Below, piece by piece: positions 19,870 through 48,672 of a stretch of 64,000 bases of DNA. Position 1 is the first letter of the stretch; the number at the start of each line of letters is the position of its first letter. A model generated the notes under the pieces. It had not been told where the DNA came from and ran no database searches. It saw only the letters and a program-made list of their open reading frames with translations. Location of the stretch: positions 3,144,691 to 3,208,690 of the forward strand of contig NZ_AP024563.1 of the NCBI RefSeq assembly GCF_018409545.1, in the 5' to 3' direction. The translations under genes and the position numbers were made by a program. The DNA comes from Allochromatium tepidum. GTDB taxonomy: Bacteria; Pseudomonadota; Gammaproteobacteria; Chromatiales; Chromatiaceae.

Positions 19870-19948
19870 GTCGAAAGCCCTCGGCGATATTTGTCTGGTG
19901 TGGGACACGCATGACCGCCCGGGCCGCGTCTGGGCGGTCCGGGTTTGG

Positions 19949-19999
19949 CGTTCACCCTGTCGTATTGAGAAAAACGGTGGTGCTCACCGAAAAACCGGT
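19949..19999 (-). repeat. 51-bp compound motif, copy A (upstream of the ubiquitin-like operon)
   Basis: Read on the minus strand: ACCGGTTTTTCGGTGA, 8 nt, GTTTTT, 6 nt, then ACGACAGGGTGAACG. It ends 79 nt before the start of the 79-residue gene. Matches copy B at 40 of 51 positions by hand count. Its first block can form a hairpin extended by flanking bases (GCTCACCG/CGGTGAGC). Confidence 0.75.
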
Positions 20000-20097
20000 G
20001 AGCGGCTGAACGGGGATGTGCGGTGTCGGGCGGAGGAAATGCGGTTGGATCGGCGCGGGAAGGCCTCCGGCCGGCCCGCGCCTTGTTGCTGTTATGT

Positions 20098-20148
20098 CTT
20101 TCACCCTGTCGTTTGGCAAAAAACGATGTTTTTCACCGCGAAACCGGT
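20098..20148 (-). repeat. 51-bp compound motif, copy B (between cas1 and the ubiquitin-like operon)
   Basis: Read on the minus strand: ACCGGTTTCGCGGTGA, 8 nt, GTTTTT, 6 nt, ACGACAGGGTGAAAG. It lies 8 nt beyond the cas1 stop codon, in tandem with copy A. Matches copy C at 35 of 51 positions. Confidence 0.75.
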
Positions 20149-20156
20149 CACGGCGT

Positions 20157-21131
20157 TTAGGCCGCTTCGGAGACGTCTTCCGGGTGTACGTCGTCCGGTC
20201 CGGCCTCGCCCAGCGCCTCCAGCAGTTGGGCCAGCAGGCGCTGCATGGGCTTGAGTGCCAGACGATGGCCCTCGCGGTACCAGGCCGCATAGAAGGCGGC
20301 GCGTCCCTCGGCATCGAGCCGCACGCCGTCGGTCGGGCTGTGGGTGAACTGCGCCGGCTTCAGCAGCGCCTGACGCACCAGCAGGTCATGCACCCAGTCA
20401 TCGAGCACCGCACGCGCCGGTTCGAGCAGATCCAGCGCCAGGGACTCGCGATCGGGATGCAGTGCGTGCAGAAAACCGATCTGGACATCGAGTCCGGCCT
20501 TGACCGCCAGCGGTGTCGCCTGTCCCTGAGCCAGGGTGTAGACCAGCGACATCAGGGCATTGACCGGATCGCGCGGCGGGCGGCGCGAGCGCCTGTGAAA
20601 GGCGAAGGCGCCGGTGCGCGCATAGCGCGTCTCCAGCGCGCCGAAATACTTGACGGTGGCCGCGCCCTCGACGCCCATCAGGGCGGCGAAATCAGGGGCT
20701 TGGGTCGCCGCATGCATGGCGCGGTAGAAGGCGTCTTCCATCTCCGGGGGCTGCTGACGCGCGCACTCGGCCATGCTTTCGAGCTTGGCGCAGACCACGC
20801 GCCGCGCCAGATCCAGCCGCTGTTCGGGATCGGCATAGGCCAGATGTTGCTGATGGCGCCGCCGTACATGCCGGTGCGGCAGGTGCGCCACGCCGACGGC
20901 CGGTGCGCGTCCGCGCTTGGGCAGTGTCGTGAAGGGCACGCCGTGGGCGGCCAGCGCCTGCAGGACGCCGGTGCTCAGTTGCACATCGCCGTGCAGCAGC
21001 ACCGAGCCGAGCGCGCGCAGTCCGATGCGCTCGCGCCGTCCGTCGGCGTGGGTGAGAACCAGCGTCTCGTGCGTCCCCGTTTCCAGGGCGGCACCGGCGC
21101 GATCGACGACCAGGGCCAGATGTCCGCTCAT
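20157..21131 (-). CDS. cas1: CRISPR-associated integrase Cas1
   Basis: 324 residues from ATG 21131. Cas1 features: the N-terminal domain SVLLHGDVQLSTGVLQALAA, the catalytic Glu region VEGAATVKYFGALETRY, DPVNALMSLVYTLAQGQA, and the His/Asp region GLDVQIGFLHALHPDRESLA followed by LDLLEPAR, plus FTHSPTDGVRLDAEGRAAFY. It forms the spacer-integration complex with Cas2. The cas2-like frame ends 5 nt upstream. No reverse transcriptase domain is fused. The gene itself looks intact although the first Cas2 domain upstream is broken. Confidence 0.93.
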   Translation of the reverse strand: MSGHLALVVDRAGAALETGTHETLVLTHADGRRERIGLRALGSVLLHGDVQLSTGVLQALAAHGVPFTTLPKRGRAPAVGVAHLPHRHVRRRHQQHLAYADPEQRLDLARRVVCAKLESMAECARQQPPEMEDAFYRAMHAATQAPDFAALMGVEGAATVKYFGALETRYARTGAFAFHRRSRRPPRDPVNALMSLVYTLAQGQATPLAVKAGLDVQIGFLHALHPDRESLALDLLEPARAVLDDWVHDLLVRQALLKPAQFTHSPTDGVRLDAEGRAAFYAAWYREGHRLALKPMQRLLAQLLEALGEAGPDDVHPEDVSEAA

Positions 21132-21136
21132 GTCGT

Positions 21137-21400
21137 TCACCAATGATGAGTGGCGATCGGGATCAGTGACGGGGCGGTGTCTTCGCCCATCCGCCACAGT
21201 GCGCGACTGGCACCGAGCGGATAGGCCCACAGACGATCGCCCGTCTCCAGGAAGGTGTTGCAGCGTTTCAGGAGGGCGGTCAGGTGCGTGACGGGAGCGC
21301 GTAGCCAATAGACCGAGCGCTGTACCATGGCGGTTTCCGCCGCGATCTCGGCGCTGACGGCGCGTAGCGCGGCGGCGTTGGAGATGTCGAAGCAGAGCAT
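21137..21400 (-). CDS. Cas2-like domain, second of a tandem pair
   Basis: 87 residues from ATG 21400, read in the same frame as the C-terminal part of the preceding broken Cas2 domain. Cas2 pattern: MLCFDISNAAALRAVSAEIA (strand-D-helix), MVQRSVYWLRAPVTHLTALL (QxSV strand) and RLWAYPLGASRALWRMGED. The ATG sits inside the predicted first strand (NIGNF-MLCFDIS), so the domain probably evolved as part of a longer Cas2-Cas2 chain; translation may now start here or at an upstream GTG. It ends 5 nt before cas1. The Cas2 assignment is by pattern. Confidence 0.65.
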   Translation of the reverse strand: MLCFDISNAAALRAVSAEIAAETAMVQRSVYWLRAPVTHLTALLKRCNTFLETGDRLWAYPLGASRALWRMGEDTAPSLIPIATHHW

Positions 21401-21987: not shown

Positions 21988-22253
21988 GGAGCACCTCCTG
22001 ACGTTCGCTGGGTGGGTCGGGTAATGGGGCGTGATCGTTTTGCCGCCGTCACGCCTTGGGTGATAGGATTGAGGGAGCCGCGTCCAGGCGGCGCTCATGG
22101 AGTCCTTTCATCGTCTCGTAGGACAAAAACAGGCCGCTTTCACCGAAAATCCGGTAACTCGGGGAGTCGCCGATGCTGGGGATGATGCCCAGGCGCTCGA
22201 ATTGTCACGTTCAACCAACTGACTTGAAAGTGTTTTTGCGTCCATTGCGCGGG
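21988..22253 (+). promoter_or_regulatory. CRISPR leader / divergent region between cas2 and the array
   Basis: 266 bp without a supported gene, separating the minus-strand cas2 start from the first repeat. It holds the cas2 ribosome-binding site, motif copy C (22105-22155) and the leader-proximal stretch up to 22253. The degenerate last repeat at the far end of the array shows that this is the leader side. No convincing sigma-70 promoter toward the array was seen; TTGTCA at 22203 lacks a matching -10 box. Confidence 0.7.
22105..22155 (-). repeat. 51-bp compound motif, copy C (upstream of cas2, within the CRISPR leader)
   Basis: Read on the minus strand: ACCGGATTTTCGGTGA, 9 nt, GTTTTT, 5 nt, ACGAGACGATGAAAG. 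It lies 117 nt upstream of the cas2 start and in the same orientation relative to its operon as copies A and B. It could serve cas2-cas1, the array, or both. Confidence 0.75.
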
Positions 22254-23919
22254 ACTCTTCATTTCGACGTGCAGAGACACGCTGGAAACCGATGATAAGA
22301 TCCTACACAGTGCTGCATATAGACTCTTCATTTCGACGTGCAGAGACACGCTGGAAACTAAAGTAACTCCCATGCTTTTCTAAACTTAACAACTCTTCAT
22401 TTCGACGTGCAGAGACACGCTGGAAACAAACTATTTTGCATATTGACTTTAGCTAACTGACTCTTCATTTCGACGTGCAGAGACACGCTGGAAACTAATT
22501 TTGCTGGAATAATTAAAATTAGCTGGAGACTCTTCATTTCGACGTGCAGAGACACGCTGGAAACCTTGCCGCGCCCCGTGCCGGCGAGTGCGTCCGACTC
22601 TTCATTTCGACGTGCAGAGACACGCTGGAAACACGCAGCGCGCACTCATCGCGCGGCTGCTGAGACTCTTCATTTCGACGTGCAGAGACACGCTGGAAAC
22701 CCTTGCCAGGGCTATCGGTATTACCCTAGACTCTTCATTTCGACGTGCAGAGACACGCTGGAAACTTATTTACCCTATGTTACTGATGGAGGTATAAACT
22801 CTTCATTTCGACGTGCAGAGACACGCTGGAAACGCATCTTGTCTTCATATTTCACGACGACATAGGACTCTTCATTTCGACGTGCAGAGACACGCTGGAA
22901 ACTAACTCCCACGCCTTCTTGAATCTAACAATATACTCTTCATTTCGACGTGCAGAGACACGCTGGAAACGCGAGCGCCGAAATGTCCGCATCAGAATAT
23001 GACTCTTCATTTCGACGTGCAGAGACACGCTGGAAACCCATCCGACAAGTAATCTTTTTCCACACATAAGACTCTTCATTTCGACGTGCAGAGACACGCT
23101 GGAAACTATTAGAACTACCGATATTACGGGCAATAGGACTCTTCATTTCGACGTGCAGAGACACGCTGGAAACGCCCCATTCTTAAGGGTATGAATCTTC
23201 ATAACGACTCTTCATTTCGACGTGCAGAGACACGCTGGAAACCATTAGCACTAGTAGCTCCAGTGCCACCATCAGACTCTTCATTTCGACGTGCAGAGAC
23301 ACGCTGGAAACACAAATAATTCGTCACCGCTGCCTATATGGGACTCTTCATTTCGACGTGCAGAGACACGCTGGAAACATGTATTCTTTCAAATAAATCA
23401 TTTAAAGTGACTCTTCATTTCGACGTGCAGAGACACGCTGGAAACAAATATTCAACATACTGTTCCGGATAATGGACTCTTCATTTCGACGTGCAGAGAC
23501 ACGCTGGAAACGCTGGAAATCTCCAGCATTTCATTAGCTACCGGACTCTTCATTTCGACGTGCAGAGACACGCTGGAAACATGAAGAGGAGCATAGTAAA
23601 CTCTGCAATGGGACTCTTCATTTCGACGTGCAGAGACACGCTGGAAACCGAAGTAAGCGCTCTTTCCATCCATGGAAAGGACTCTTCATTTCGACGTGCA
23701 GAGACACGCTGGAAACAACCTAGCCTTGGTGGTGAATGTGGCCCTCCACTCTTCATTTCGACGTGCAGAGACACGCTGGAAACCTCCCCAATGAAAAACA
23801 TTTTCGCCTCCCGCGACTCTTCATTTCGACGTGCAGAGACACGCTGGAAACCAAAGCACCTAAAGCCATTAATAGCTATGGTGACTCTTCATTTCGACGT
23901 GCAGAGACACGCTGGTGAT
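22254..23919 (+). CRISPR. CRISPR array, 25 repeats and 24 spacers
   Basis: A 36-nt repeat beginning ACTCTTCATTTCGACGTGCA and ending GAGACACGCTGGAAAC recurs with a period of 65-69 nt. Most copies are preceded by G. Spacers are 29-33 nt. The final repeat (23884-23919) loses the terminal AAAC, marking the leader-distal end, so transcription is rightward. The 3' end CTGGAAAC would be the 8-nt crRNA tag of a type III system. Spacers are mostly AT-rich compared with the host, as expected of phage or plasmid DNA. Spacer 5 matches acuI, and spacers 2 and 10 target homologous coding sequences. Confidence 0.98.
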
Positions 23920-24073: not shown

Positions 24074-27000
24074 ATGGCTCTGTCGCTTTGGATTTCCCCG
24101 GACTCGCAGTACGGCCTGCTCGCCCCCGGCGAGGCACGGACAAACACCTACCAGCGCGCTGTGGAGCAGGCACTCAAGCAGCATTTGTTCAAGGATCAGG
24201 ACGCCGGAGCTCCCACGGCAGCCGCGCCGCCCTACGACGATGGGCTGCGCCAGTTCAACGCCGCCCTGACATCACCGCCGAGCTTCGGGCGCGACCGCCG
24301 GAACGCTGCGCGCCTGTGGCAGGCACTGTTGGCGAGCGACACCCCACAGGAACACCCTGACGCCATAGTTGACGAGCGCATCGAGGGTCTGTTCTGTCTC
24401 GCGCTGCATAGCCTGTGCGCGGCACTGGCCGAACAGACAGTGCGCCAAAACAGCATCGACACGTCCGATGAGGACGAGGAGGAAGATGCAGGCGAGGACG
24501 ACATGGACGAGGACAAACGACCCGGCGTCGAATATGCCGAAACGGTCAGGGTGCTGGCCGAGCAACTGCGCCGACGCGCAGCCCGCTGGCTGCGCTCACA
24601 GCCAGAGCACGAACGCCCCGAGAACGACGATTGGAATCTCGTAGCCCGGCTTCTGCTCGAACCGCTGCTGGTGGCCTTCAAGACCCAGTTCGTGGTGCGC
24701 ACACTCGATCAGAAACGCCGGCGCGACGGCCGACCCCACACCGAAAAGCGCATCGAAATCGCCCAGCCCGAACTCGCACAGCGCATCGAACGCCTGCTCG
24801 AAACCCTGCCGCTGAGTTTCTCGCCCCAACCGCTCAGGCACCCGCCGGCCTACTATCTCGATGATCCCGGTCCGTCGAACGACGAAGCCGACATGTGCAT
24901 CCGTGTCGATCTGATCGGCTACCGTCAGACCAACGCCTTTCTACGCACCGTCCATCACGAACTCCAGTGCCCCGAACATCGCTCACCGGACTTCCCGCGT
25001 TATGTCGCCGCGATCAATGTGCAGCAGGCCGTCCACTGGCGCATCAACCGCCCCCTGCTGCACTGGACGCACCGCCTGATCGACCTGGTCAACGCCTCAA
25101 CCGAGGACGCCGGCACCAAGTCCGTGCGGGACTGGATCAAAAAGACCCTGTATCGCCCCACCAAAGGCCCACGCAAACGCTTCAAGCTATCGGCAGAGTT
25201 TCTCGACAGTCCGCTCGCCCGCCGCGCGCTCGACGAACTCTGTCCCAGCGATCCGCAGATCGCGCCGCCCCCGTTCTATCTGCCGTGGAAGGCCGATCAT
25301 CGCGGACGCATCTATGCCGAGACGCCCTGGTTGACGCCGCAGGGCGGCGATCTGCAACGGGGCTTGCTGGAATTTGCGCGGGGTCAGGTGCTCGATGAAT
25401 CCGGCGTGCGCGCCCTGCGTCGGCATGGAGCCAATCTGGTCGGCACCAAACGGATCATGGCTGATTTGGGCATCACGGAGCGCGTGCGTCCGGTCGTCAC
25501 GCTCGACGAGCGCGAACGCTGGACGCTCGACCACGAAGCCGACATCCTGGCCAGCGCCGCCGACCCGCTCGCCGAATCCTTCTGGCGTGACGTGGCCGAT
25601 GAGCCGATGCAGTTTCTCGCCTTCTGTCTGGCCTACCGGCAATGGAAGCGGCATCCGGACACACCCATCCATCTGCCGGTGCAGATCGACGGCACCTGCA
25701 ACGGCATCCAGCACATCGCCGCCTTGACCGGGGATCCGGTGCTCGCCGAGGCGGTCAACGTGCTGCCGCGCGCGGATGGTCTGCCGGCGGATATCTACAG
25801 CGAATTGGCCGAGGCGGCACTGACGACCCTGGGGCGGTTGCCCATCCCCACGGGACAGGCCATCCATCGTGATGGACTGGAGTGGGCCGATGCCTGGCTG
25901 GCGGCCGAGGACGAACCCAGTGCCTGGCTCGCCCGCAAGACCGCCAAACGGGTGGTGATGACCATCCCCTACGGAGCCGGCCGCAGCGCACAGGCGGGCG
26001 CGGTGCTGGAGGCGATCGAGGAGCAACTCACCAAGGTTTGGGATGAACGCCCACCGGATGAATCCGAGCTCACCGCACTGGTGGAGTGGAAAAACGCCTC
26101 GAAAGAGCGCAGGGATTTCGTGCGCAAGTGCACCAAGGGTTTATTCGCCAAACAGCGCGAGGCCGCGTTTCCCAAACAGGACGAGCACACCGCGATCCCG
26201 ATTCAGATGATCCAGTCGGGCGAGAAGACACCTAAGCGCACGCGCACCAAGTCGGACACCGACGAACCCCGGACCCCGGAGCGTGCCGAGTGGGAGCGTC
26301 TGCGCACCTTTGGCGCCTATGTGGCGCGCGCCCTGGTCGAGCATCTGCGCGGCGCACTCGATCGGAACTACCCCAAGGTCGGCGAATTTTCCAACTGGCT
26401 CGGCCGGAGTGCCGCTGCCTGCGCGGGAACCGGAAAAGCGCGGAAGGGCGAAACCGAGAAGGATATCGGTCTGCCGCTACTGTGGCTGACCCCACTGGGA
26501 TTTCCGGTGGTTCAGAACAAGTTCGCATCCGCGAGATCGAGCGTCAGCGCCCGGATCGGCGGGCAGTTGGTCAAGTTCGATGTGCAGCGCCTGACCGAAA
26601 CGGTCGATCCACAAAAACAACGCGATGCCCTGCTGCCCAACCTGATTCACAGTCTGGATGCAACCCATCTGATGATGACCCTGCTGGAGGCCAAGGCACG
26701 CGGGGTGCATGACATCGGCACTATCCACGATTGCCTGTTGTGCCATCCGAATCAGGCCGACACCCTGGCACGGGCGGTGCGTCGGACCTTTGCCGAACTC
26801 TATGCGCCGGATACGTCGTCAGGGTGGTCCGGGCCGCTGAGTACCTGGTACACATGGATGAAGCAGGTGACGACGTTACGAACCTTGCCGAACGCCTATG
26901 CGAACCTGGTCAAGGGCGCTTTTGAACACCCGGGCAAGGAGGGCGAGCGCCGTCTCGATGCCGCCCGGGACGCCGGTGAAGAGGACGCGATCCACGCGCG

Positions 27001-27178
27001 CAACGTCCTGGACGATCTGCGTGGCTTTTCCGCCTCCGAGCGCCTGCTGCTGGGGCTGTTGCTGAAACGTGTCGTCGAGCACGCAGTGCCGAAAACCTCG
27101 CCGACCCTGGAGCCGCCGCTCTGGGCCGACGACCTGGATTTGACCGAAGACCGTATCTCCACATACTTCTTCTCCTGA
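24074..27178 (+). CDS. T7-like single-subunit DNA-directed RNA polymerase in a CRISPR operon
   Basis: 1034 residues from ATG 24074, chosen for GGGAG 6 nt upstream; longer in-frame starts exist at 24056 and at a TTG at 24023. All polymerase motifs are present: YLPWKADHRGRIYAETPWL with PQGGDLQRGLLEFA (T7 DWRGRVY region); motif A QIDGTCNGIQH with catalytic D539; motif B RKTAKRVVMTIPYGAG with R621, K625, Y633 at the T7 spacing; motif C HSLDATH and GTIHDCLL with H885, D886. About 70 extra residues lie between B and C, and residues after C end in STYFFS. An acidic stretch (SDEDEEEDAGEDDMDED) lies in the N-terminal third. No phage genes surround it; it opens the type III cas operon, 9 nt before the CARF-AAA-HTH gene. 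Likely an active RNA polymerase; its promoters are unknown. Confidence 0.93.
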   Translation: MALSLWISPDSQYGLLAPGEARTNTYQRAVEQALKQHLFKDQDAGAPTAAAPPYDDGLRQFNAALTSPPSFGRDRRNAARLWQALLASDTPQEHPDAIVDERIEGLFCLALHSLCAALAEQTVRQNSIDTSDEDEEEDAGEDDMDEDKRPGVEYAETVRVLAEQLRRRAARWLRSQPEHERPENDDWNLVARLLLEPLLVAFKTQFVVRTLDQKRRRDGRPHTEKRIEIAQPELAQRIERLLETLPLSFSPQPLRHPPAYYLDDPGPSNDEADMCIRVDLIGYRQTNAFLRTVHHELQCPEHRSPDFPRYVAAINVQQAVHWRINRPLLHWTHRLIDLVNASTEDAGTKSVRDWIKKTLYRPTKGPRKRFKLSAEFLDSPLARRALDELCPSDPQIAPPPFYLPWKADHRGRIYAETPWLTPQGGDLQRGLLEFARGQVLDESGVRALRRHGANLVGTKRIMADLGITERVRPVVTLDERERWTLDHEADILASAADPLAESFWRDVADEPMQFLAFCLAYRQWKRHPDTPIHLPVQIDGTCNGIQHIAALTGDPVLAEAVNVLPRADGLPADIYSELAEAALTTLGRLPIPTGQAIHRDGLEWADAWLAAEDEPSAWLARKTAKRVVMTIPYGAGRSAQAGAVLEAIEEQLTKVWDERPPDESELTALVEWKNASKERRDFVRKCTKGLFAKQREAAFPKQDEHTAIPIQMIQSGEKTPKRTRTKSDTDEPRTPERAEWERLRTFGAYVARALVEHLRGALDRNYPKVGEFSNWLGRSAAACAGTGKARKGETEKDIGLPLLWLTPLGFPVVQNKFASARSSVSARIGGQLVKFDVQRLTETVDPQKQRDALLPNLIHSLDATHLMMTLLEAKARGVHDIGTIHDCLLCHPNQADTLARAVRRTFAELYAPDTSSGWSGPLSTWYTWMKQVTTLRTLPNAYANLVKGAFEHPGKEGERRLDAARDAGEEDAIHARNVLDDLRGFSASERLLLGLLLKRVVEHAVPKTSPTLEPPLWADDLDLTEDRISTYFFS

Positions 27179-27187
27179 AGGTCGACC

Positions 27188-28654
27188 ATGGCGCACCCCA
27201 AACGACGGCTCATCATCTCCTTCATTGGCAATACCGATCTGAAGGCGCTGGGCTTCAATCCGCCCAGACCCGATCAGCCCGGCCCGGATCAGAGTCCGAT
27301 CCAGCGTCTCCTGGGCGGCTTGCCGTCTGACCGCCAGGCGGTTCGTCTGGTGCTGCTTGACGATGACCCGACTGGTTCTGATCTGCGCGCCCGTTTCTGT
27401 GACCGGCTGCGCGAGCAGCTGCCGGAACTGGGCATCGATGGGGTGCAGGTTGAGCGCTTTCCCGTGACCCTGCCCGACGGCCCGACCGATCTATCCGCCC
27501 TCTATGAGCAGGTCTGGAAAGCGATTCCCACCTCGGGGCCGGATAGTGCCGATGAGGTCGTGTTCCACCTGACCTCGGGCACGCCCGCGATGCAGCTGAC
27601 GCTGATGCTGGCATCGCAGAGTTTGCGCCTGGACGAGGCGCGACTGTTCGAGACGTCGCGCGAACAAGGGGTACGCGAACTCAAGCCGCCCTATGCCTTG
27701 GCGCTGCGCCGCAGACGCGAGCGCGAGCGCGAGCGCATGGCCTATCAAAGCCCGGGGTCGCTGTCCGACGCGGAACGCAAGGGACTGCTCAAGGGAACCG
27801 TGGTCGATGACACACTGGCCGAAAGCGCCTATGCCGCGCTCTACAAGGCGGCAACCAATCGCAAGCAACCGCAACGTGTGCTGATCAGCGGCCCGACCGG
27901 CAGCGGCAAATGGCACGCCTGCCGGCAGTTTGCCCGGTGGCGCAAGTGCCAAGACCCCGCGATCTGGACGGATCCCGCACACTGTCCTGAACTGCCCGAG
28001 GGCACGACCCTCCTGATCCGCCGGCTCGATACCTGGCCGGAATCGGCCTGGCGAACGCTTGCCCAGTTGGCCGATGAACGCCGCGATCTGGCCATGGCCG
28101 CGACCTTTTGCATCGATCGCCGACCGAATGACGCGCTCGTTGGTCTCCTGCCCGTACAGATTCGCTTGCCTGCGCTGGGTGCGCGCACAGACGTGGTGGC
28201 GCTGGCCGAGTCCTTGGCTTGCGAGCTCGGCCTCCTCGACGGCAAGCTCAAGGAGCGGCTGCAGCATGATCTTTTCACCAACCTCTACCCACGCAGTCTG
28301 CACGAGCTCAAGGCGTTTCTGGCCACCGCCAACGCCTACAGTCCAGGCGCACATCCCGAGCGCAAGGCGTATCTGCAAGCCCGTGATCTTCACGAGGCAC
28401 GGCGGCTGCTCGATGAGGCCTGTCAGGTGCTCACGGACATGGATTTTGGGGTGGGGCGGCATCGGCTCGATGATGTTCTTGATGTGATCCGCTGGGCGAT
28501 TGTGCAGCGGGCGCGAGCCGAGGGGCGCAGTCAGGAGGAGACCGGCGCCTTGCTTGGCCTCAGCCAATCGACCATATCAGATATCATCCTCAAGACCGAA
28601 TCGGATCCGCAACTTTGGCAAAGCCTGGGCGAAAGTGACCATGGGACGCCCTGA
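27188..28654 (+). CDS. CARF-AAA-HTH regulator resembling RtcR
   Basis: 488 residues. Residues 1-175 resemble the CARF domain of RtcR, with a ligand-site motif VVFHLTSGTPAMQLTLMLAS and the start RLIISFIGNTDLKALGF. Residues 225-400 are an AAA-like domain with Walker A LISGPTGSGKW but a degenerate Walker B (TTLLIRRLDTW) and no GAFTGA loop, so sigma-54 activation is unlikely. The C-terminus has an HTH (GRSQEETGALLGLSQSTISD). CARF domains bind cyclic oligoadenylates, so this looks like a cOA-responsive transcription factor. It starts 9 nt after the polymerase gene and overlaps the Cas6-like gene by 14 nt. Confidence 0.78.
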   Translation: MAHPKRRLIISFIGNTDLKALGFNPPRPDQPGPDQSPIQRLLGGLPSDRQAVRLVLLDDDPTGSDLRARFCDRLREQLPELGIDGVQVERFPVTLPDGPTDLSALYEQVWKAIPTSGPDSADEVVFHLTSGTPAMQLTLMLASQSLRLDEARLFETSREQGVRELKPPYALALRRRRERERERMAYQSPGSLSDAERKGLLKGTVVDDTLAESAYAALYKAATNRKQPQRVLISGPTGSGKWHACRQFARWRKCQDPAIWTDPAHCPELPEGTTLLIRRLDTWPESAWRTLAQLADERRDLAMAATFCIDRRPNDALVGLLPVQIRLPALGARTDVVALAESLACELGLLDGKLKERLQHDLFTNLYPRSLHELKAFLATANAYSPGAHPERKAYLQARDLHEARRLLDEACQVLTDMDFGVGRHRLDDVLDVIRWAIVQRARAEGRSQEETGALLGLSQSTISDIILKTESDPQLWQSLGESDHGTP

Positions 28655-29540
28655 ACACCGGCCCGAGGTGCGCGGCGCGCGCGATCTGACCAATCTTTGG
28701 CGCGAGCTGCCTGCGGCTGTGCTGGCGTATCCCGCCTCGGCCTGGTCGCCCGAGCGGGGCCTGGCCACGCTCATCGACACCCTGCGCGCGCGTGCCTGGC
28801 GCGAGCACTGCGCGGCGGCCACCGTGCAGAGTTGCGCCGAACGCGGCCAAAACTGTGAACGCCCCGGACACTGTCGCGCCGATGCGCTCTTCCCGATGAA
28901 CATCGGCGGCGGCGCACCGTCCTGGCGTCAGGCAACCTTGTTCGTGCAGTGGCGTCCGGCACTCGATCAATGGCACCTGATTGCCCTGGGCGCCCAGGCC
29001 GGCGACTCACTCGGCTGGGCGGCGCGTTGTTTGCGCGAGCGTCATGGCCTGGAGGGGTCGACACCTCTGCCCGTGTCGACACTGGCCGACCTGGAATTGG
29101 CGGGAGCGACACGTTGGCGGCTGATGTTCGTCACGCCCTGGCTGGTCGGCAAGGGGCGGACGGAAACCTCTCCCTCCCCGGATACCGAAACCGTGGCGCA
29201 TGAACTGCGCAAGGCGATGCGCCTGCGCGCCCACAAGCTGACGGCGTTATGTTTCGACGATGCCCGCGCCCAGCGTCTGGCCTCACATCTGGCGCATCAT
29301 GTGGCCGAGGCACGGCTGCCGGACGGGCTGCGTGTCGAACAGGCACAGGTCGCGACCCATCCCCTGGCGCTGGCCAGCCGCGGCAATGGGGCGAGCTTTG
29401 TGGCGCTCACCTGGAGCGGGCAGGCGATGCTGCGAGTGGAACCGGACATCCTGCCCTGGCTGAGTCTGATTGCACTCAGCGGCGGGGGCGAGAATGCGGA
29501 CAAGGGGTTTGGCGGTATCGAGTTGACCCCGCTGGATTGA
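28641..29540 (+). CDS. cas6: Cas6-like CRISPR RNA endoribonuclease (RAMP)
   Basis: 299 residues from ATG 28641. The C-terminal glycine-rich stretch LSGGGENADKGFGGIEL is the RAMP/Cas6 signature. The N-terminal part has a Cys cluster (SCAERGQNCERPGHCRADAL) before LFPMNIGGG, as in Cas6 proteins of the PF10040 group. Cas6 cuts pre-crRNA inside the repeat and leaves the 8-nt tag. It is the only candidate for that step here. The catalytic residues cannot be fixed from the sequence alone. Confidence 0.65.
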   Translation: MGRPEHRPEVRGARDLTNLWRELPAAVLAYPASAWSPERGLATLIDTLRARAWREHCAAATVQSCAERGQNCERPGHCRADALFPMNIGGGAPSWRQATLFVQWRPALDQWHLIALGAQAGDSLGWAARCLRERHGLEGSTPLPVSTLADLELAGATRWRLMFVTPWLVGKGRTETSPSPDTETVAHELRKAMRLRAHKLTALCFDDARAQRLASHLAHHVAEARLPDGLRVEQAQVATHPLALASRGNGASFVALTWSGQAMLRVEPDILPWLSLIALSGGGENADKGFGGIELTPLD

Positions 29541-29567: not shown

Positions 29568-31259
29568 ATGCGTTGGCTATGGTTGGTCTCGGTCGGTGTG
29601 ACCGATGTGCAGTGTCCGGTTTGGACGAAGGACGACAATGGACTCTGGCAAGGACCGCAGCGCTTCCAGCTCGGGCGTGGCGGGGTACGCAAGACTCACG
29701 AGGGACTCCTGACACTTCTGCGTCGCGAGCGGATTCGCTTCGATCCTGAAATTCCGCCCCTGATCGAGCGTGAACCGGCCGACCGCCTGCGCTTCGAGTT
29801 CGAGCACGATCCCGCCGACGACGAATTTCTGGCCGCGCTGCACCCGGCGGACTATCGCCTGTCGCCGCAGGCGGACACCATCCCCAACGACCAAGAGGAA
29901 CGGCTGCCGCTCTACTGTCCCAAGGTCGCGCCGCTGGCCGATAAGGTGCACGAGATCATCGGTCGCGACACAGTGTCGGTACTGGTGCTCAACACACGCC
30001 GCGCCGAGGATTTCGGCCCCGAAGCGCGAGACGAACCCATCGCTTCCGGTCCCCTGGTCGCACGCTATCTGGCCGAACGTCTGGGACTGACCTGGCTCGA
30101 CAGCGACGGTCGGCTGCCCGAAACCTTCGCGTCGGGAAGCGCCACCTGGATCGACATCCTGACCGAGCGCGAGGCGATGGAAGAGTCCGAAGCACAGGGG
30201 CGCGTGGTCGAGCGTCTGAATGCGGCCCTGTCACTCTGGAGCGGCACGGGATCGGACGAGCGGCGCGTGCTGGTCACCACCAGCGGCGGAATGCCGCCGC
30301 TCAAGCCGCTCATCGAGCGTGTGCCGGCGATTCATGTCGGGCAGCCGCATGTCACGCTGCTCGATCAATCCGAGCGGCGAGGCCGGGATGCCCCTGTCGC
30401 CGCTTCGGTCCTGAACTACGGGGAGCGCGTCGCCGAGCGCGAGACGCTGCGTTTTCACTGTACCGAGGCGCTGCGGGCCGGTGATTATGCCGGCGCCTAT
30501 GGATTGGCACGGCGCGCCGGTCAGTGCTCATGGGCTGACGCGGTGTGCAACCGTCTGGGGTCGCTGCTGGAGCTGCCGGGGCAACCGCTGCACATCAAGG
30601 GGCGCGTGGTCGAGCCCTTCGTCCTGCATGCCGTTCAGGTCGAGACACGCCTATGCATGGGCGATCTGACGGGCGCGCTGTTGCGGATGGGGCCGTTCGT
30701 CGAATCCGCCACCTGGAAACTCATGGCGAGCGATGCCCGGATCCGTGCGCTGGGACTGAAGTTCGATCGGGCCAATGAGAGCCTGTTGGGGACCATTCCC
30801 CAGGATCATCCATTGCTGTCCGACGAGGCCGGCTATTTACGCCGTTTCGAGGACAAAGCCCCCGCACCATCGCATTCGGACGGCCTCGATCGGCATCGCA
30901 TCAATGGGTTGACCTGGGAGTGGCCCAAGTGGATGGCCGAGCCGGATGGCGGACAGCGGACGGCGGCCCTGGCGCTCATCCAGGTCTGTATGTCCTATAA
31001 CAGCGATCAGTGGGGAACGAGTCCTCGACAGTATCGCAATCTGCTGGCGCATGGCGCGGATCAGGCCGTGTCCTTGGGCGAGATCGAGACCTGTCTGAAA
31101 AAACGCGGCCTGATCGTCGGTGCGGCACGACCGTTCGGGGACGGATTCCTGGCAACCGAGCGCATCGCCACGCTGCTGGACGAGCTGGGCATGCCCGATC
31201 TGGTGGACATCATGCGCACCTATCTGGCGGATCTTCTCAACCGCGTCATCAGGGGCTGA
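29568..31259 (+). CDS. CARF-HEPN ribonuclease (Csm6/Csx1-like)
   Basis: 563 residues. The N-terminal half contains a CARF-type ligand motif VLVTTSGGMPPLKPLIERVP, preceded by SVLVLNTRRAEDFG. The C-terminal part carries the HEPN catalytic motif RNLLAH (R-x4-H) in QYRNLLAHGADQAV. Proteins of this design are non-specific RNases switched on by cyclic oligoadenylate from Cas10. It lies 27 nt after cas6 and 6 nt before cas10. The middle (LRAGDYAGAYGLARRAG) looks helical. Exact subfamily not certain. Confidence 0.82.
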   Translation: MRWLWLVSVGVTDVQCPVWTKDDNGLWQGPQRFQLGRGGVRKTHEGLLTLLRRERIRFDPEIPPLIEREPADRLRFEFEHDPADDEFLAALHPADYRLSPQADTIPNDQEERLPLYCPKVAPLADKVHEIIGRDTVSVLVLNTRRAEDFGPEARDEPIASGPLVARYLAERLGLTWLDSDGRLPETFASGSATWIDILTEREAMEESEAQGRVVERLNAALSLWSGTGSDERRVLVTTSGGMPPLKPLIERVPAIHVGQPHVTLLDQSERRGRDAPVAASVLNYGERVAERETLRFHCTEALRAGDYAGAYGLARRAGQCSWADAVCNRLGSLLELPGQPLHIKGRVVEPFVLHAVQVETRLCMGDLTGALLRMGPFVESATWKLMASDARIRALGLKFDRANESLLGTIPQDHPLLSDEAGYLRRFEDKAPAPSHSDGLDRHRINGLTWEWPKWMAEPDGGQRTAALALIQVCMSYNSDQWGTSPRQYRNLLAHGADQAVSLGEIETCLKKRGLIVGAARPFGDGFLATERIATLLDELGMPDLVDIMRTYLADLLNRVIRG

Positions 31260-31265: not shown

Positions 31266-32939
31266 ATGGGTACTCCAACCGTTAAACTCACCCTCGAACT
31301 CAAGCGCGTTCAGACCTTCATCTTCGAGGTGCCGCGCCTCAAGGCCATGCTCGGCGCCAATGCCCTGATCGGGCAGACCATGCGGCATGAGCTGCCGGCG
31401 TTGCCGGCGAATCAGGGCAGCCGGCTCGACTGGCCGAAGGAGATCAGGCTTCAGGGCACAGCGGATGATCCGCTGGATCGGCCCGAAACCGACGCTTCCG
31501 ACCGCGACGACCCGGCGGCCCTCTATCAGCGCGGCATTCTGGCGCGCGATGGCGGGCATTTCATCGTATTGTTCGATGATGAATCAGCCGCCGAGCGCTT
31601 TCTGGAACAGGCTGAGGCGGTGCTGGCCGAGCGGTTGCCGGGGGTGCTCTACGAGGCACGGATCGATCCGTTTCCCGAGCCGAAGGAACCGCCCCCGCGT
31701 CAGCCACGCGATCCGCATGAAACCGCCCTCCTGGATCTGCCGGTGTTGCAGGTGTGCCAGGAGACGGGGCAAGGGCCGGCGTCGGTGCGCAACGACAAGG
31801 GCTACTGGCAAGGCGAATCGGTACGCTATCGCCTGGAGTGGGGCGACTGGTTTTATAAAGGATGCACGCAAGACATCATCGGCCTGTTGCGTCCCACGCT
31901 CTATCCCGACCGCGCCATGGACTGGCAGGAGCCCGACGATCTGGCGCAACTGGCGGCAGGCGGCTATCTGGCACTGATCCACGCCGACGGCAACGGCATC
32001 GGCAAACGCTACAAGTCGTGGCGCGACCAAGCCAAGTCTCAAAATGAGGTCGTCAAGGAGGCGCACGGCGAGGCGTTCTTTCACAGCATGCGCGTTGCGG
32101 TGCGGCGAGCGGTCGTCACAGCGCTGACAAAGACGTTCACCGAACCGGGCGGCGTGCGCCCCTACGAAATCCTGATGCTCGGCGGCGATGATCTGCTGCT
32201 GGCCTGCCGTGCTGACCGAGCACTCGATTTCGCGCGCCACTATGCCGAGGAACTGACCCGCTATACCCTCGCCGACGGCCAACCGCTTACCGTTGCCATC
32301 GGTGCGGCCATCGCCCGGAAGAGCTACCCGTTGCATCGGCTGCATGAGCTGGCTGAGGATCTGGCCTCCAGCGCCAAGCGGCTCTATCGCGCCCTGCTGT
32401 CCACTGGCGAAACATCCTCGGTCATCGACTGGCAGGTCGTCACCCAGTCCTGGTTTGCCGATGTCGCCGAGGCACGACGCCAGACCGAGCGCATTCAGTA
32501 TCAGGTCAATGGGCAAGTCGACACCCTGTTGCTGACCGGGCGGCCTTATCGCGTGTTGGGTGCGGAAGGACTCGATGAATTGCTCAGGGACGCACAGCAA
32601 CTCGACGCCCCGCGAAAGCCTGGCGAGTCCGGTGACACTCAAGATGAGAGCAAAGCGGCTCGCTCGTCACTGCGCGCCTTGCGTGCGGCCTGCGAGCAGG
32701 GGCGCCTGATGGCGGAGATGGCCTTTGCCCGGCTGCCCGAATCCGTGCGCGCCCGATTGGCCTGGAACGATGGCGCACTCTGGAAGCCCACTGCCCAGGG
32801 GGACCAGACCTTCTATCTCACCCGCGCGCTCGACATCATCGGCCTCCGCGAGATCGAACACCTGGGCAAACGGCAGGACCAAAGCCCCTCTTCCTCCGGG
32901 AGAGAGGTTGAGGTGAGGGTTCATAACAGATACTTTTAA
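31266..32939 (+). CDS. cas10: Cas10-like subunit with GGDD cyclase site and no HD domain
   Basis: 557 residues. Palm 1 has YLALIHADGNGIGKRYKSW; palm 2 has ILMLGGDDLLLAC with the GGDD motif at residues 306-309, required for cyclic oligoadenylate synthesis. The N-terminus (LTLELKRVQTFIFEVPRLKA) begins directly with the palm-type fold, so the HD DNase domain of typical Cas10 is missing. The last residues (SPSSSGREVEVRVHNRYF) come from a REP-like palindrome and from the IS607 edge. It is the large subunit of the type III effector. Confidence 0.9.
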   Translation: MGTPTVKLTLELKRVQTFIFEVPRLKAMLGANALIGQTMRHELPALPANQGSRLDWPKEIRLQGTADDPLDRPETDASDRDDPAALYQRGILARDGGHFIVLFDDESAAERFLEQAEAVLAERLPGVLYEARIDPFPEPKEPPPRQPRDPHETALLDLPVLQVCQETGQGPASVRNDKGYWQGESVRYRLEWGDWFYKGCTQDIIGLLRPTLYPDRAMDWQEPDDLAQLAAGGYLALIHADGNGIGKRYKSWRDQAKSQNEVVKEAHGEAFFHSMRVAVRRAVVTALTKTFTEPGGVRPYEILMLGGDDLLLACRADRALDFARHYAEELTRYTLADGQPLTVAIGAAIARKSYPLHRLHELAEDLASSAKRLYRALLSTGETSSVIDWQVVTQSWFADVAEARRQTERIQYQVNGQVDTLLLTGRPYRVLGAEGLDELLRDAQQLDAPRKPGESGDTQDESKAARSSLRALRAACEQGRLMAEMAFARLPESVRARLAWNDGALWKPTAQGDQTFYLTRALDIIGLREIEHLGKRQDQSPSSSGREVEVRVHNRYF

Positions 32940-34763: not shown

Positions 34764-34837
34764 AACCAGCCTCGATGAAGCAGGAAGAAAATAACAGATA
34801 GTTGAGATTATCTGAGACTTTTCGGAGCGGAAAGCGC

Positions 34838-36826
34838 ATGACCGATACCACAACGGCTCCGGCATTCAGCCGACTCCGCGTCGAAACACTGGAAGACCTG
34901 CACACCGGCTCCGGCACCGGCGGCGGCGACATCGACGCCCTGGTGCAACGCGACCGCCGCGGGCAGCCGGTGATTCGCGCCAGTCATCTCAAGGGATTGC
35001 TGCGCGAGGCCGGTGAGGAACTTATCGCCTTTGGCGCACTGACAACCGACGACCTGCACGCGCTGCTCGGCACACAGGGTACAGGGCGCGGCGCCCTGCG
35101 TCTGACCTCGCTGTACGTGCCTGATGGAGCAGAGGGGAAGACGCTGATCTGGGGTTCGACCCAGCGCGTCGAGAACGGCCGCGCGCCCCAGCCGGATACC
35201 CTGCGCTTCATCGAGCATGTGGCGGCGGGGACGCGCTTCGAGGCGACCTTGCGACTGGCCGATGCCCGACTGCAACCGCTGCTCGCACGACTCCTGAAGC
35301 GCGTCGACCGCCTCGGTGGGGCACGCAATCGCGGCGGTGGGCTGGTGAAACTCGATTGGGATCCGATCACCTTCGCCCCCGGCCCGCTCCCAATGGAATC
35401 GATGCGATCCGTGCGCTTGGTTTTGCGCAATCTGGAGCCTCTGTGTCTGCCGGCGACCGGACATCCGGGCAACCTGATCAAGAGCCACTCCTTCATTCGC
35501 GGCCAGACCCTGCGCGGCGCGCTCATGGCTTGGGCGATTCACAACGGGCAGGCTGATCGGCTCAAACTGTTCGAGCGTCTCTCCGTCGGCGATGCGCGGC
35601 CGCTGCCCGAAGGGTGTGACGGCGCCGAGCAGGTCATTCCCATCCCGCTGTCGCTCCTGACCGATAAACCGCGTGGCGGCGATCCGGCGCTTCCCTGGTG
35701 GGCCGGTGGTACGGCAAGCGCCGCTACCTTCGATGCGTTGGGCAACATGCCTGAGGCCGAGGAAAAGCGCAAACGCCCCGGTGCGCACGAGTATCTGTGC
35801 CGCATGGCGAATGGCACGAATTGGCAACGCTACAGTCCTGCCATGCGGGTGCGGCTGCGCAATGCCACGCCCAAGCGGGAGTCCGACGAAGACGCCCGGC
35901 TCTTCAGCCTGGAGGAGATCGCCGAGAGCACCTGTTTTCAGGTCGATGTGCAGGGCGTCGACGCCGACGCCGTCAAGGACTTTCTCGACGTCTTCGCCCC
36001 CGTACTTGCCGGCACGGACTGGCTGGCGATCGGGCGCGGCGGACAGCCGACCTGTATCGTGTCGGTGCAGCCGACACCGACGCCACCCCAACCGCCTGTG
36101 CTTGGGGATGACTGGACCCTGACTCTGACGAGCGAGGCCATCGTGCGCGGCGAACGGCTGGGGTTTCTCGATAACCTCAGGCTGGAGCATCTGTGTCGAC
36201 TGGTGGAGATCGACGTTCAGGACCACTGGAGGATCCTCACCGAGGTGGTCGAGACCACACCCGTGCACGGCTTCAATGCCGTCACCGGCCTGACCCGTGC
36301 CCCGGCTCTGGCACTGCGGCGTGGCTCCTGCTGGCGTATCACGGGAACGGGGAGTGGCGCACTGGCCCGCGCGCTGATCCGGATGGGGACCCTCGGCGAG
36401 CGCACCGACGAGGGATTCGGGCAGTTTCTGATCGGGCTTCAGCCGATCCCTTCGGACCGGCTGGGCAAGCCGCCGGGCAAACCGGAAGTGCTGAAGACGA
36501 ATCGCAACGAGGAACTGTTGGTCCGAGCGCGGGAACTTGCGGATCGGATCAGCGATGCTGGCGGCCCGAGTCTGAGCCAGTTGCAGTGGCTACGCTCGCA
36601 AGCTGGAGCGGTGGAAACGGAGCCGCAATTGCAAGCGTTACTGGATGAAATCGAGCAGGCGCCAACCCGTCGTCCGCAGGGAGGTAAACCCTGGGCGAAG
36701 GAAACCTTCCCGCTGCCGGCGCTGAAGGAGGCGCTGGCACACTGCCGCACGCTGACCGAAAAACGCCAACTGATCGCCTATCTGGTGCAATGGCGCGTTC
36801 TAAAGGCGAAGGAGGGACGCTCATGA
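34838..36826 (+). CDS. Cas7-Csx10 (Cas5-like) fusion RAMP protein
   Basis: 662 residues from ATG 34838. Residues 1-170 are a Csm3-type Cas7: ETLEDLHTGSGTGGGDIDAL, VQRDRRGQPVIRASHLKGLL, with an Asp-rich loop that may hold a target-RNA cleavage residue, and GGARNRGGGLVKLDW. From about 190 a second RAMP unit follows (SHSFIRGQTLRGALMAWAI, later TLGERTDEGFGQFLIG) resembling Csx10, the Cas5-like subunit of type III-D. The C-terminal 130 residues are helical. It follows cas10 after removal of the IS607 insertion and overlaps the next gene by 4 nt. Confidence 0.72.
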   Translation: MTDTTTAPAFSRLRVETLEDLHTGSGTGGGDIDALVQRDRRGQPVIRASHLKGLLREAGEELIAFGALTTDDLHALLGTQGTGRGALRLTSLYVPDGAEGKTLIWGSTQRVENGRAPQPDTLRFIEHVAAGTRFEATLRLADARLQPLLARLLKRVDRLGGARNRGGGLVKLDWDPITFAPGPLPMESMRSVRLVLRNLEPLCLPATGHPGNLIKSHSFIRGQTLRGALMAWAIHNGQADRLKLFERLSVGDARPLPEGCDGAEQVIPIPLSLLTDKPRGGDPALPWWAGGTASAATFDALGNMPEAEEKRKRPGAHEYLCRMANGTNWQRYSPAMRVRLRNATPKRESDEDARLFSLEEIAESTCFQVDVQGVDADAVKDFLDVFAPVLAGTDWLAIGRGGQPTCIVSVQPTPTPPQPPVLGDDWTLTLTSEAIVRGERLGFLDNLRLEHLCRLVEIDVQDHWRILTEVVETTPVHGFNAVTGLTRAPALALRRGSCWRITGTGSGALARALIRMGTLGERTDEGFGQFLIGLQPIPSDRLGKPPGKPEVLKTNRNEELLVRARELADRISDAGGPSLSQLQWLRSQAGAVETEPQLQALLDEIEQAPTRRPQGGKPWAKETFPLPALKEALAHCRTLTEKRQLIAYLVQWRVLKAKEGRS

Positions 36827-38175
36827 GTCAGCCCTATCGCACACTTTTCATGGGAACCCTGGTGCAGGACTCATTCCTGAGCGTCGGTGGCCGCGACGAC
36901 CCGACCGCCAGCGTGGACAGCCCCTTTTGTCTGGACGGATCGAATCGTCCGACGCTGCGCGGCAGCGGACTGGCGGGGGCGCTGGTGGCGACCCTGCGCC
37001 GGATGCGGCGCGATGAGCCTGAACCTGTGCCTAAAACGATCTCGGGCAGTGTTGACGGCCGTCAGCCCTCGGTCTGGCGCTGCTTCAACAGCCATCCGCG
37101 CGCCGAGACTCGTCCGGTCGTGCGCCAGCATGTGGCCATCGATCCCCGCACCGGCGCCGCGGCAACCGGCATGCTGTTCGATGTCGAGACCCTGCCGCCC
37201 GGCATCCGCTGGCCGTTTTTGCTGGAAGTCGATACTTCCCGCGATGCGCAAGCCGCTGACTTGGCGCGTCAGGTACTTGGTCACTGGGCCGCCGGGCGCT
37301 GTCTGCTCGGGCGCGAGGTGGCGCGCGGCCTGGGCTGGCTGCGGCTGGAGAACGGTCGGGAATATGTCCTGACGAGCGAACACCTGGAGCAGTGGCCGTG
37401 CGCCTGTGATGCCAATGACTATCCGGGCTATATCGCGGCGCAGTTTCAGGCGCTGGCCCGGCCGATCAAGCCGGCCGCCACGCCATTGCCGGACTGGTGC
37501 GAAATCAGCGGCACACTGACGGCGGGTGATTACAGGCCGGCTTGGCATGGGGATGGGGAAAGCGTCTGGGGGTTGGACAGCCTGTCCATCGGTGGTCATG
37601 CCGGCGACGAACTCATCGCCCATTGGAACGACCGCTTCATGGCGCCCGATGGTTTAGCGGAAGAGGCCCGCGACAGCCTGTTCGATCCTGATTTCACCGT
37701 CGTCACCTGTGTCAGGGAAGGCGATGACCAGCGTCTACCCTACATTCCCGGCTCCAGTCTGCGCGGACCGCTGCGTCATGCATTGGCGCGACGGCGGCGA
37801 ACCAGGGGAGAGGGCACGGAGGATGTCGACACGCTGTTCGGCACAACTCAGCAGAGCGCGAAACTGTTGATCCAGGATGCCTTCCCCGATCCGGACGCGG
37901 AGCTACGCCTGGCATGGTTCCAGCATCATGCCGAGGACGAATTCACCGCCAGTACCTATGGGTCCGGCAAGTTCGACCGTGTGGCAGTGATGCAGGGACG
38001 CTTCCGCTGGCGGATGGTGCTCGAAGGGGCGCGTCCGGAGCAACGGCAGGCGCTCCGGGAACTGTTGGCGCTGGCGGAACATGGCCAGATCGGCATAGGC
38101 GGCGGTCAGTGGCGCGGGCATGGTTGGCTGCGCTGGCAGATCGACCGTTTTGACGGCGAGGAGGACGGAGTATGA
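36823..38175 (+). CDS. Tandem Cas7 (Csm3-like) RAMP protein
   Basis: 450 residues with two RAMP units. The first shows LVQDSFLSVGGRDDPTASVD and RPTLRGSGLAGALVATLRRM; the second shows SLSIGGHAGDELIAHWNDRF and LPYIPGSSLRGPLRHALARR, ending with GQIGIGGGQWRGHGWLRW. Duplicated Cas7 units form the backbone of the type III effector that contacts crRNA and target. ATGA overlaps with both neighbours indicate a single transcript. Confidence 0.78.
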   Translation: MSQPYRTLFMGTLVQDSFLSVGGRDDPTASVDSPFCLDGSNRPTLRGSGLAGALVATLRRMRRDEPEPVPKTISGSVDGRQPSVWRCFNSHPRAETRPVVRQHVAIDPRTGAAATGMLFDVETLPPGIRWPFLLEVDTSRDAQAADLARQVLGHWAAGRCLLGREVARGLGWLRLENGREYVLTSEHLEQWPCACDANDYPGYIAAQFQALARPIKPAATPLPDWCEISGTLTAGDYRPAWHGDGESVWGLDSLSIGGHAGDELIAHWNDRFMAPDGLAEEARDSLFDPDFTVVTCVREGDDQRLPYIPGSSLRGPLRHALARRRRTRGEGTEDVDTLFGTTQQSAKLLIQDAFPDPDAELRLAWFQHHAEDEFTASTYGSGKFDRVAVMQGRFRWRMVLEGARPEQRQALRELLALAEHGQIGIGGGQWRGHGWLRWQIDRFDGEEDGV

Positions 38176-38645
38176 CGGGCAACACCTGTGGATTGCGCAT
38201 CCAAACGCAACAAGAAACGCGCACGGTGATGGAGATCATCGCCGATGAGGCCGGCAAAGCACCGCCGCTGCTGGCCTGGGCCGATCCGGATCCCCGACAT
38301 GTAGCACTGACCAATGACAGTGGACGCCGTCAGGATTTCGAACCACTCGTACAGGGAGTGCCGTCCTGGCCGGCTGACCTGCGACTCAACGAGGCCCGGT
38401 TGTTCTGGCCCGATGCGGCACTGCATGTCGTGGCGCGCGACGCGGGCGGTTCGATCTGGACGCGGATCGAGGAGACATCCGGCACCGAGTTCAGACGCGA
38501 GGCGTTTCCGGTACATCCCATTCGTGATCGCCAGCGATTCGGGTTGCCGGATGAATCCTTGAATACGGATCTGTGGGCCATTGGCTACCGGCAGTTCGGG
38601 CGTCTGGTGGCGTGGCGGTTGAGCATTAAGGAGGCAAAGGCATGA
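38172..38645 (+). CDS. Csx19-like CRISPR-associated protein
   Basis: 157 residues, no membrane segment or known catalytic motif. The C-terminus (ESLNTDLWAIGYRQFGRLVA, then WRLSIKEAKA) and the position between the double Cas7 and the TIGR03986-type RAMP fit Csx19, a small protein restricted to type III-D loci. The assignment rests on context and length. Overlaps both neighbours by 4 nt (ATGA). Confidence 0.55.
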   Translation: MTGNTCGLRIQTQQETRTVMEIIADEAGKAPPLLAWADPDPRHVALTNDSGRRQDFEPLVQGVPSWPADLRLNEARLFWPDAALHVVARDAGGSIWTRIEETSGTEFRREAFPVHPIRDRQRFGLPDESLNTDLWAIGYRQFGRLVAWRLSIKEAKA

Positions 38646-42731: not shown

Positions 42732-42736
42732 GACGG

Positions 42737-43888: not shown

Positions 43889-43903
43889 GTTGAGCTCATT
43901 TCT

Positions 43904-44125
43904 TCAGTGACGGTTGTCAAAAAAAGTGCCCAACCGCCCCAGCAACCCGCCAACAAGCGCGCCCACGCCGCGCAGCGGGTGCAGGTCGAGCGCCTCGTTG
44001 CCGCAGCGTGGGCATTGGCTGGGGGGAAGGTCCTTGGCCGTCAAGGCATCCGAGCGCGGCTGCCAGCGGGTGTGCCAGCCGCAGCGCGGGCAGTGGATGT
44101 TGAGGGGTTGTGGCGGGATGGGCAT
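43904..44125 (-). CDS. Small zinc-ribbon protein
   Basis: 73 residues with two CxxC pairs (HCPRCGWHTRW and QCPRCGNEALDL) forming a zinc ribbon, then a glycine-rich hydrophobic stretch GVGALVGGLLGRLGTFF. It lies 15 nt before the AAA gene and 22 nt after the HEPN gene, on the same strand, so all may be one operon. Function unknown. Confidence 0.65.
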   Translation of the reverse strand: MPIPPQPLNIHCPRCGWHTRWQPRSDALTAKDLPPSQCPRCGNEALDLHPLRGVGALVGGLLGRLGTFFDNRH

Positions 44126-44147
44126 GGCGGCGTCTTGGGCGAAGGGT

Positions 44148-44810: not shown

Positions 44811-44850
44811 GGGGTAGCGGCCAATTGCGGGGTGATGGTGTCGATGAGTG

Positions 44851-48652: not shown

Positions 48653-48672
48653 GATGGTTTGTCAAGCATGGT

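Follow-up and report, generated by a model that had tools for sequence, protein, structure and literature searches.

Why would a CRISPR (clustered regularly interspaced short palindromic repeats) operon carry an RNA polymerase gene of its own? The question is raised by a stretch of 64,000 nucleotides from Allochromatium tepidum (contig NZ_AP024563.1, positions 3,144,691 to 3,208,690), hereafter the window, in which a gene for a T7-type single-subunit RNA polymerase stands between a repeat array and the genes of what we take, from their sequences, to be a type III-D module. Enzymes of the T7 type have been described chiefly from viruses and mitochondria. The analysis described here leaves us nearly certain that the polymerase genuinely belongs to this CRISPR variant, and its gene is, judging from the sequence, part of the effector operon.

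The polymerase and its relatives in CRISPR loci

The gene that raises the question is the following:

24074..27178, plus strand: T7-type single-subunit RNA polymerase of 1034 amino acids (Pfam, PHROGs, PDB, T7 alignment, structure model)

The open reading frame begins with an ATG at 24074 and runs without interruption. Its product matches Pfam family PF00940 (RNA_pol) with 223 bits, above the curated cut-off of 22, and PHROGs family phrog_414, 'RNA polymerase', with an E value of 2e-110; of its 17 sequence matches in the PDB, one is a weak match to a phage RNAP2 and the rest are T7 and mitochondrial RNA polymerases, and at E 0.001 it is the only PF00940 match in the genome. The residues of motifs A, B and C and the DWRGRVY-like block, which a first-pass annotation had read in the letters of the window, were recovered by alignment to the annotated T7 gene, where D537, R627, K631, Y639, H811 and D812 of T7 correspond to D539, R621, K625, Y633, H885 and D886, and R425 of the DWRGRVY block corresponds to R412. 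The six catalytic positions are invariant in all 42 rows of the alignment. The same annotation had proposed a structural comparison with the T7 enzyme, and the right-hand polymerase fold of T7 type indeed spans the whole chain. A specificity-loop hairpin, typical of promoter-reading enzymes, was both aligned to T7 and modelled (residues about 817-844); its residues diverge from those of T7, so a different promoter is expected for this polymerase. All tests made of sequence and fold place the enzyme in the T7-type family.

Close relatives of the polymerase are present in five distinct genomes, namely that of the window, Thiorhodococcus drewsii (drawn twice, as G406 and G426, and counted once) and three genomes designated G550, G068 and G752. 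Of the 369 genomes sampled from the class, 2 have one, as do 2 of 398 in the phylum draw, 3 of 210 in the window's order (which also has one distant homologue, in genome G464), 1 of 40 in the order of G068 and 1 of 48 in the order of G752; there is overlap between the samples, and the window genome is part of three of the five. The window, T. drewsii, G550 and G068 share one gene order: repeats, polymerase, a protein with CARF, AAA and helix-turn-helix (HTH) regions (CARF-AAA-HTH), a Cas6-like protein, CARF-HEPN, Cas10, Cas5/7 and Cas7. Two orders are represented among these four loci, the polymerases are 48-62% identical, and the repeats of all four contain the block CGTGCAGAGACACGCTG; the contig of G068 ends inside Cas7, with Csx19 and the last Cas7-like gene beyond its reach. 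On a 3-kb contig of G752, a member of another class, the polymerase is again followed by CARF-AAA-HTH, and the two genes adjoin in all five genomes read. The gene is thus not peculiar to the window, a possibility that the first-pass annotation had kept in view, as the CRISPR loci of T. drewsii, G550 and G068 carry it too.

Some of these loci have features of their own. In G550, a 5' fragment of the polymerase gene is duplicated together with its upstream region and stands before the repeats (L021 1-420), and the Cas10 gene has one internal TGA. T. drewsii possesses a second locus about 11 kb past the end of its cas operon (L016 16354-19258), with cas1, the leader element described below and an array in which the repeat block occurs six times.

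Within the 210 genomes of the order, CARF-AAA-HTH occurs in exactly the three that have a close polymerase (G464 aside), and Cas10 in seven. The Cas10 proteins of T. drewsii and G550, which both carry the polymerase, are 73% and 66% identical to that of the window. Genome G587 has a Cas10 at 75% on a 3.5-kb contig, too short for context, and no polymerase was found in this 84%-complete genome; in G553, G574 and G598 (Cas10 at 40-43%), the stretches read contain no polymerase, CARF-AAA-HTH or repeat block. Co-occurrence with type III-D loci, suggested earlier as a check, is seen as synteny in four genomes, and close polymerase and CARF protein are jointly present in the same three of 210.

The association extends to a wider sample of database proteins. 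Here we used as a fingerprint the exact size in bases of the longest contig of each protein cluster and compared it between 73 close polymerases, 59 CARF-AAA-HTH proteins and 119 Cas10 proteins (120 listed of 463, the window's own set aside); clusters hold many contigs, so the matches are lower bounds. At least 25 of the 73 polymerases share a contig size with a CARF-AAA-HTH protein, 24 with a listed Cas10 and 37 with either, while control lengths shifted by 1 to 60 bases both ways gave means of 0.12 and 0.20 and a maximum of 2. Matching contigs include those of Nitrosomonas sp. Nm51, Thiocapsa and one labelled Acidobacteria. Pairwise protein distances are also correlated, at 0.924 for polymerase and CARF protein (25 pairs) and 0.838 for polymerase and Cas10 (24 pairs), with none of 2000 permutations as high in either case, and common host descent could account for part of these values.

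As for the origin of the enzyme, a quick tree of 40 proteins (midpoint root, several long branches) places 25 family members in one group, with a Shimodaira-Hasegawa-like approximate likelihood ratio test (SH-aLRT) support of 100, apart from the T7, other phage, plasmid and mitochondrial enzymes; the family has 74 members in all, and only some of them have a CRISPR context that is known or fingerprinted. Closest among the sampled outgroups is the G464 polymerase (L022 16605-19838, minus strand), a distant homologue excluded from the synteny counts, and no cas matches were seen within the 20 kb read around it. It stands near a DUF927 primase/helicase-like gene and an H-NS gene, on a contig that is apparently a mobile element. 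Among the 2561 phage records that match the polymerase query, not one covers 80% of it, those listed reaching 28-32% identity; the eight loci found in IMG/VR are all 25-30% identical to the window enzyme, and when two divergent family members were used to scan viral contigs, no relative came up. The first-pass annotation had seen no phage genes nearby, which agrees with PHROGs scans of 14 other open reading frames of the window that returned 'unknown function' families or nothing, with no phage structural or replication genes.

A prophage-borne polymerase is disfavoured on two counts, the lack of phage genes among the 14 frames scanned and of close relatives in the phage genomes searched. The earlier alternative that relatives would turn up in prophages only does not hold for the close relatives read, which lie outside prophages. 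The proposed recruitment of the polymerase by the CRISPR system, followed by a long shared inheritance, has gained support from the synteny of four genomes and the adjoining CARF gene of a fifth, from co-occurrence in 3 of 210 genomes, from correlated distances and from a well-supported group in the tree, apart from the sampled phage enzymes. The source was likely a mobile element.

Genes around the polymerase

The first-pass annotation had put the polymerase gene between the array and a CARF regulator, and it does lie there, after 25 repeats (about 22253-23916) and before the CARF-AAA-HTH gene, which begins 9 bases past the polymerase stop. The features of the locus are:

20157..21137, minus strand: Cas1, start approximate (PF01867 E 1e-57; TIGR00287 above its cut-off)
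22253..23916, plus strand: CRISPR array of 25 repeats with 3' block CGTGCAGAGACACGCTGGAAAC, final repeat degenerate
27188..28654, plus strand: CARF-AAA-HTH protein, RtcR/NtrC-like, lacking both GAFTGA and Walker B DE (PADLOC RtcR_PspF2 CARF_AAA_HTH E 3e-17)
28641..29540, plus strand: candidate Cas6 with glycine-rich C-terminal loop (assignment inferred; conserved synteny)
29568..31259, plus strand: CARF-HEPN effector (CARF_m10) with RNLLAH (RxxxxH) motif (PADLOC E 1e-107; motif read in the sequence)
31266..32939, plus strand: Cas10 with GGDD cyclase motif (PADLOC Cas10 E 6e-80; motif read in the sequence)
34802..36826, plus strand: Cas7-Cas5 (Csx10-like) fusion, type III-D (Pfam, PADLOC and NCBIfam scans)
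36790..38175, plus strand: tandem Cas7 protein
38172..38645, plus strand: Csx19 (PADLOC E 2e-56)
38642..40789, plus strand: Cas7-like RAMP protein (TIGR03986)

The Csx10-type Cas5 scores 49.8 bits against TIGR02674, under the curated cut-off of 177.3, and matches PADLOC Cas5_IIId at E 1.5e-15. The protein at 28641..29540, kept in all four syntenic loci, has no match in Pfam, PADLOC or NCBIfam, and its position and glycine-rich end suggest an unrecognised Cas6. Four repeats folded alone form weak hairpins (z -2.05 to +0.34), so the case for a hairpin read by the proposed Cas6 comes from the conserved repeat block. No spacer of the array matches a target among 50,697 phage records.

Several other elements were observed in this region. 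An IS607-type element (MerR-resolvase and TnpB; 32969-34763 of the window) splits cas10 from cas5, a junction that is free of insertion in T. drewsii, G068 and G550. Next to cas1, a cas2-like frame (about 21640-21990, minus strand) looks, on visual inspection, as if an insert of some 240 bases with hairpin-like ends had broken it, and at the corresponding place in G068 the frame is seemingly intact. Downstream (41104-53366 of the window) lie defence-like genes encoding a WYL protein, the HEC-01 A/B pair, a dynamin-like GTPase and a LeoA-like protein.

The CARF-AAA-HTH protein and the leader element

If the polymerase serves this locus, what controls it, and where would it start? The neighbouring CARF-AAA-HTH protein belongs to a family of 59 matches down to E 8e-56, beyond which come NtrC-type sigma54 activators at E 6e-7 and above. 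PADLOC and NCBIfam both show similarity to RtcR, the NCBIfam RtcR equivalog scoring 24.5 bits and thus falling far short of its cut-off of 650; the family profile matches FlrC weakly (E 0.004), on either side of a gap in which 3 profile positions face 42 FlrC residues. The GAFTGA motif that contacts sigma54 is present in none of the 59 members and in all four NtrC-type outgroup proteins. Walker A is retained in all 59, and the Walker B DE pair is found in no row of a 39-row alignment, where columns 278-279 are mostly R, H or W. With GAFTGA missing, Walker B DE replaced and the RtcR cut-off missed, we rejected the assignment of the protein as an RtcR-type sigma54 activator. The family appears, from these similarities, to be descended from RtcR/NtrC-type sigma54 activators, and proteins without GAFTGA and Walker B DE should not engage sigma54 in the known way. 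Since their closest co-inherited neighbour is the polymerase, the simplest reading would be a switch of polymerase partner.

The only candidate cis element that we found lies in the array leaders and beside cas1. In the window it has three copies:

22102..22157, plus strand: conserved leader element with core TTTCACCGAAAATCCGGTAA at 22138-22157; candidate polymerase promoter or operator
20095..20150, plus strand: second copy, just beyond the 3' end of cas1
19946..20001, plus strand: third, weaker copy

The leader comparison covers the window, T. drewsii (two arrays) and G068, with G550 left out. A block of about 55 bases is common to these leaders; a G-rich stretch comes after its core, TTTCACC(R)-GAAAT-TCGGTAA, and the distance from its end to the first repeat block is 110, 113, 111 and 110 bases in the four leaders. 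All three genomes have further copies past cas1, which brings the total to eight, all oriented like the array. In eight genomes there are four zero-mismatch sites, all in a leader or at cas1, and shuffled loci give none. Since these very sites supplied the search pattern, the enrichment is partly circular, and the eight copies, being of common descent, are no independent proof. A wider regulon was considered and set aside for want of a clear sign, as the excess of matches outside CRISPR loci is not clearly concentrated in the genomes with the polymerase.

The element could be the promoter of the polymerase; the GG downstream of it recalls phage-type start sites. The leaders scanned contain no sigma70-type matches, which is weak evidence given the low expected numbers (0.2 to 5.4). 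The G068 leader also contains the near-palindrome TTACC-N8-GGTAA, with similar forms in the other leaders, and the element could serve as promoter and operator at once. Terminator-like matches occur at 19989 and 20139 on the minus strand (six found in the region against 3.7 expected), and the element might conceivably serve to end leftward transcription as an intrinsic terminator.

Possible roles of the polymerase

CRISPR immunity depends on the host RNA polymerase, an enzyme that many phages inhibit or take over. We tentatively favour a reading in which a phage-type polymerase, switched by cyclic oligoadenylate and controlled by the CARF protein, transcribes the array. Cas10, in which GGDD is present, would make cyclic oligoadenylate when CRISPR RNA (crRNA) pairs with invader RNA, and the CARF-AAA-HTH protein would bind it. 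This protein would then act on the adjoining polymerase and not on sigma54-RNA polymerase, because it appears to have the ancestry of a sigma54 activator but has neither the sigma54-contact motif nor the Walker B acids. The polymerase would read from the conserved leader element and raise crRNA output, and perhaps by read-through that of the cas operon, so that crRNA output is kept up even when a phage shuts down or seizes the host polymerase. A somewhat more cautious word is due for the full claim of a second-messenger-controlled immune polymerase, in which a CARF protein re-targeted from sigma54 may fire a crRNA synthesis that invaders cannot block through the host polymerase; we regard it as possible.

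The reading builds on observed gene content, synteny, co-inheritance, catalytic residues, GAFTGA absence and the conserved leader element, and a number of points weigh against it. The synthesis and binding of the ligand, the contact between the two proteins, the identity of the promoter, the target genes and the benefit under shut-off are all steps that we infer. T. drewsii has just two repeats at its polymerase locus, and in G550 about 2.1 kb separate the repeats from the polymerase. In the fingerprint comparison, 13 of 43 polymerases on contigs of at least 15 kb match neither partner, 31 of 53 listed Cas10 contigs of at least 15 kb match no polymerase, and neither do 6 of 18 contigs that hold CARF-AAA-HTH together with Cas10; some of these exceptions may be real, though the method undercounts. 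When two mismatches are allowed, the leader pattern has 49 matches in the eight genomes against 31 for the reversed pattern, and outside CRISPR loci 24 against 17 in the four genomes with the polymerase and 17 against 14 in the four others. The element copies past cas1 show that it is not restricted to leaders, and the sigma70 scan is also blank just before the polymerase gene. The near-palindromic element may instead be an operator for an HTH protein, or else a signal for spacer integration, which its constant distance to the first repeat would fit.

How do other roles of the polymerase compare? It might be a constitutive, shut-off-proof enzyme for the array, the cas operon or both, with CARF-AAA-HTH as a separate operator-binding regulator that never touches it. 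The near-palindromes of the leaders would suit a dimeric HTH protein, and Walker A is kept in all 59 members while GAFTGA is absent; against it, the co-inheritance of polymerase and CARF protein is the tightest of all (r 0.924), and neither the close polymerase nor the CARF protein was found without the other in 210 genomes. We consider this arrangement unlikely. Doubt is greater still for an effector that, after CARF activation, transcribes invader DNA, and so supplies target RNA for type III, or, running unchecked, drains nucleoside triphosphates and halts the cell. Such a role accords with a place in the same operon as the CARF-HEPN effector, the usual site of type III effectors, and with the established need of type III systems for target transcription, but the polymerase has no sensor fusion, and the conserved leader element points, if not strongly, to a local target.

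The enzyme might also copy RNA templates, crRNA or target RNA, and amplify guides or signal. T7-type polymerases are able to copy RNA, yet the specificity-loop hairpin, as aligned and modelled, is of the promoter-reading type, and we hold this role to be very improbable. Least credible of all is a phage or plasmid passenger with no immune role: the mobile-element-like genes near the G464 outgroup would fit it, whereas an active site invariant in 42 rows, the same synteny in two orders and the correlated distances speak to the contrary.

If the reading of a CARF-controlled polymerase that transcribes the array is true, a nucleotide second messenger would here, for the first time to our knowledge, gate a single-subunit RNA polymerase, and no earlier enzyme of this kind dedicated to CRISPR is known to us. 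CRISPR immunity may bring, in such loci, its own transcription machine, one predicted to make immune RNA without the usual polymerase of the cell; a captured phage-type enzyme would be a direct answer to the weakness of the host polymerase, a phage tool turned on phages. It also suggests a route by which a lineage of sigma54 activators swaps its polymerase partner, and it would offer a possible orthogonal polymerase with a ligand switch. Among the literature matches listed, a scope that leaves most subscription papers outside, no title or opening of an abstract describes a polymerase of this kind within a CRISPR locus, and the main text of the 2025 classification paper (PMC12669027) is without the term 'RNA polymerase'.

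Compared with known systems, the locus shares Cas10, Cas5/Cas7, Cas7, Csx19 and the array with type III-D CRISPR-Cas, to which it adds the polymerase and CARF-AAA-HTH; three loci of the same order, with Cas10 at 40-43% identity, have neither. Csa3, another CARF protein, combines CARF with a winged HTH and lacks AAA, and we know of no polymerase of its own. According to the available parts of two papers, Csa3 is a transcription factor that regulates CRISPR genes and is thought to be controlled by cyclic oligoadenylate (PMC8844856, PMC8699464), which is the likeness to the system proposed here. With RtcR-like sigma54 activators, a family named as an exception to the link between CARF and cas genes in the available part of PMC4012209, the protein has in common the order CARF, AAA, HTH and its similarity to RtcR and the NtrC family, and it differs in the missing GAFTGA, the replaced Walker B DE and the adjoining phage-type polymerase. 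The polymerase itself is 25-32% identical to viral and phage enzymes (eight IMG/VR loci; 15 listed of 2561 phage records) and diverges from T7 in the residues of the specificity loop. It has the motif A, B and C residues, the whole-length fold, the specificity-loop hairpin and the aromatic C-terminal end of the T7-type and mitochondrial RNA polymerases, from which it is set apart by being encoded inside a CRISPR operon.

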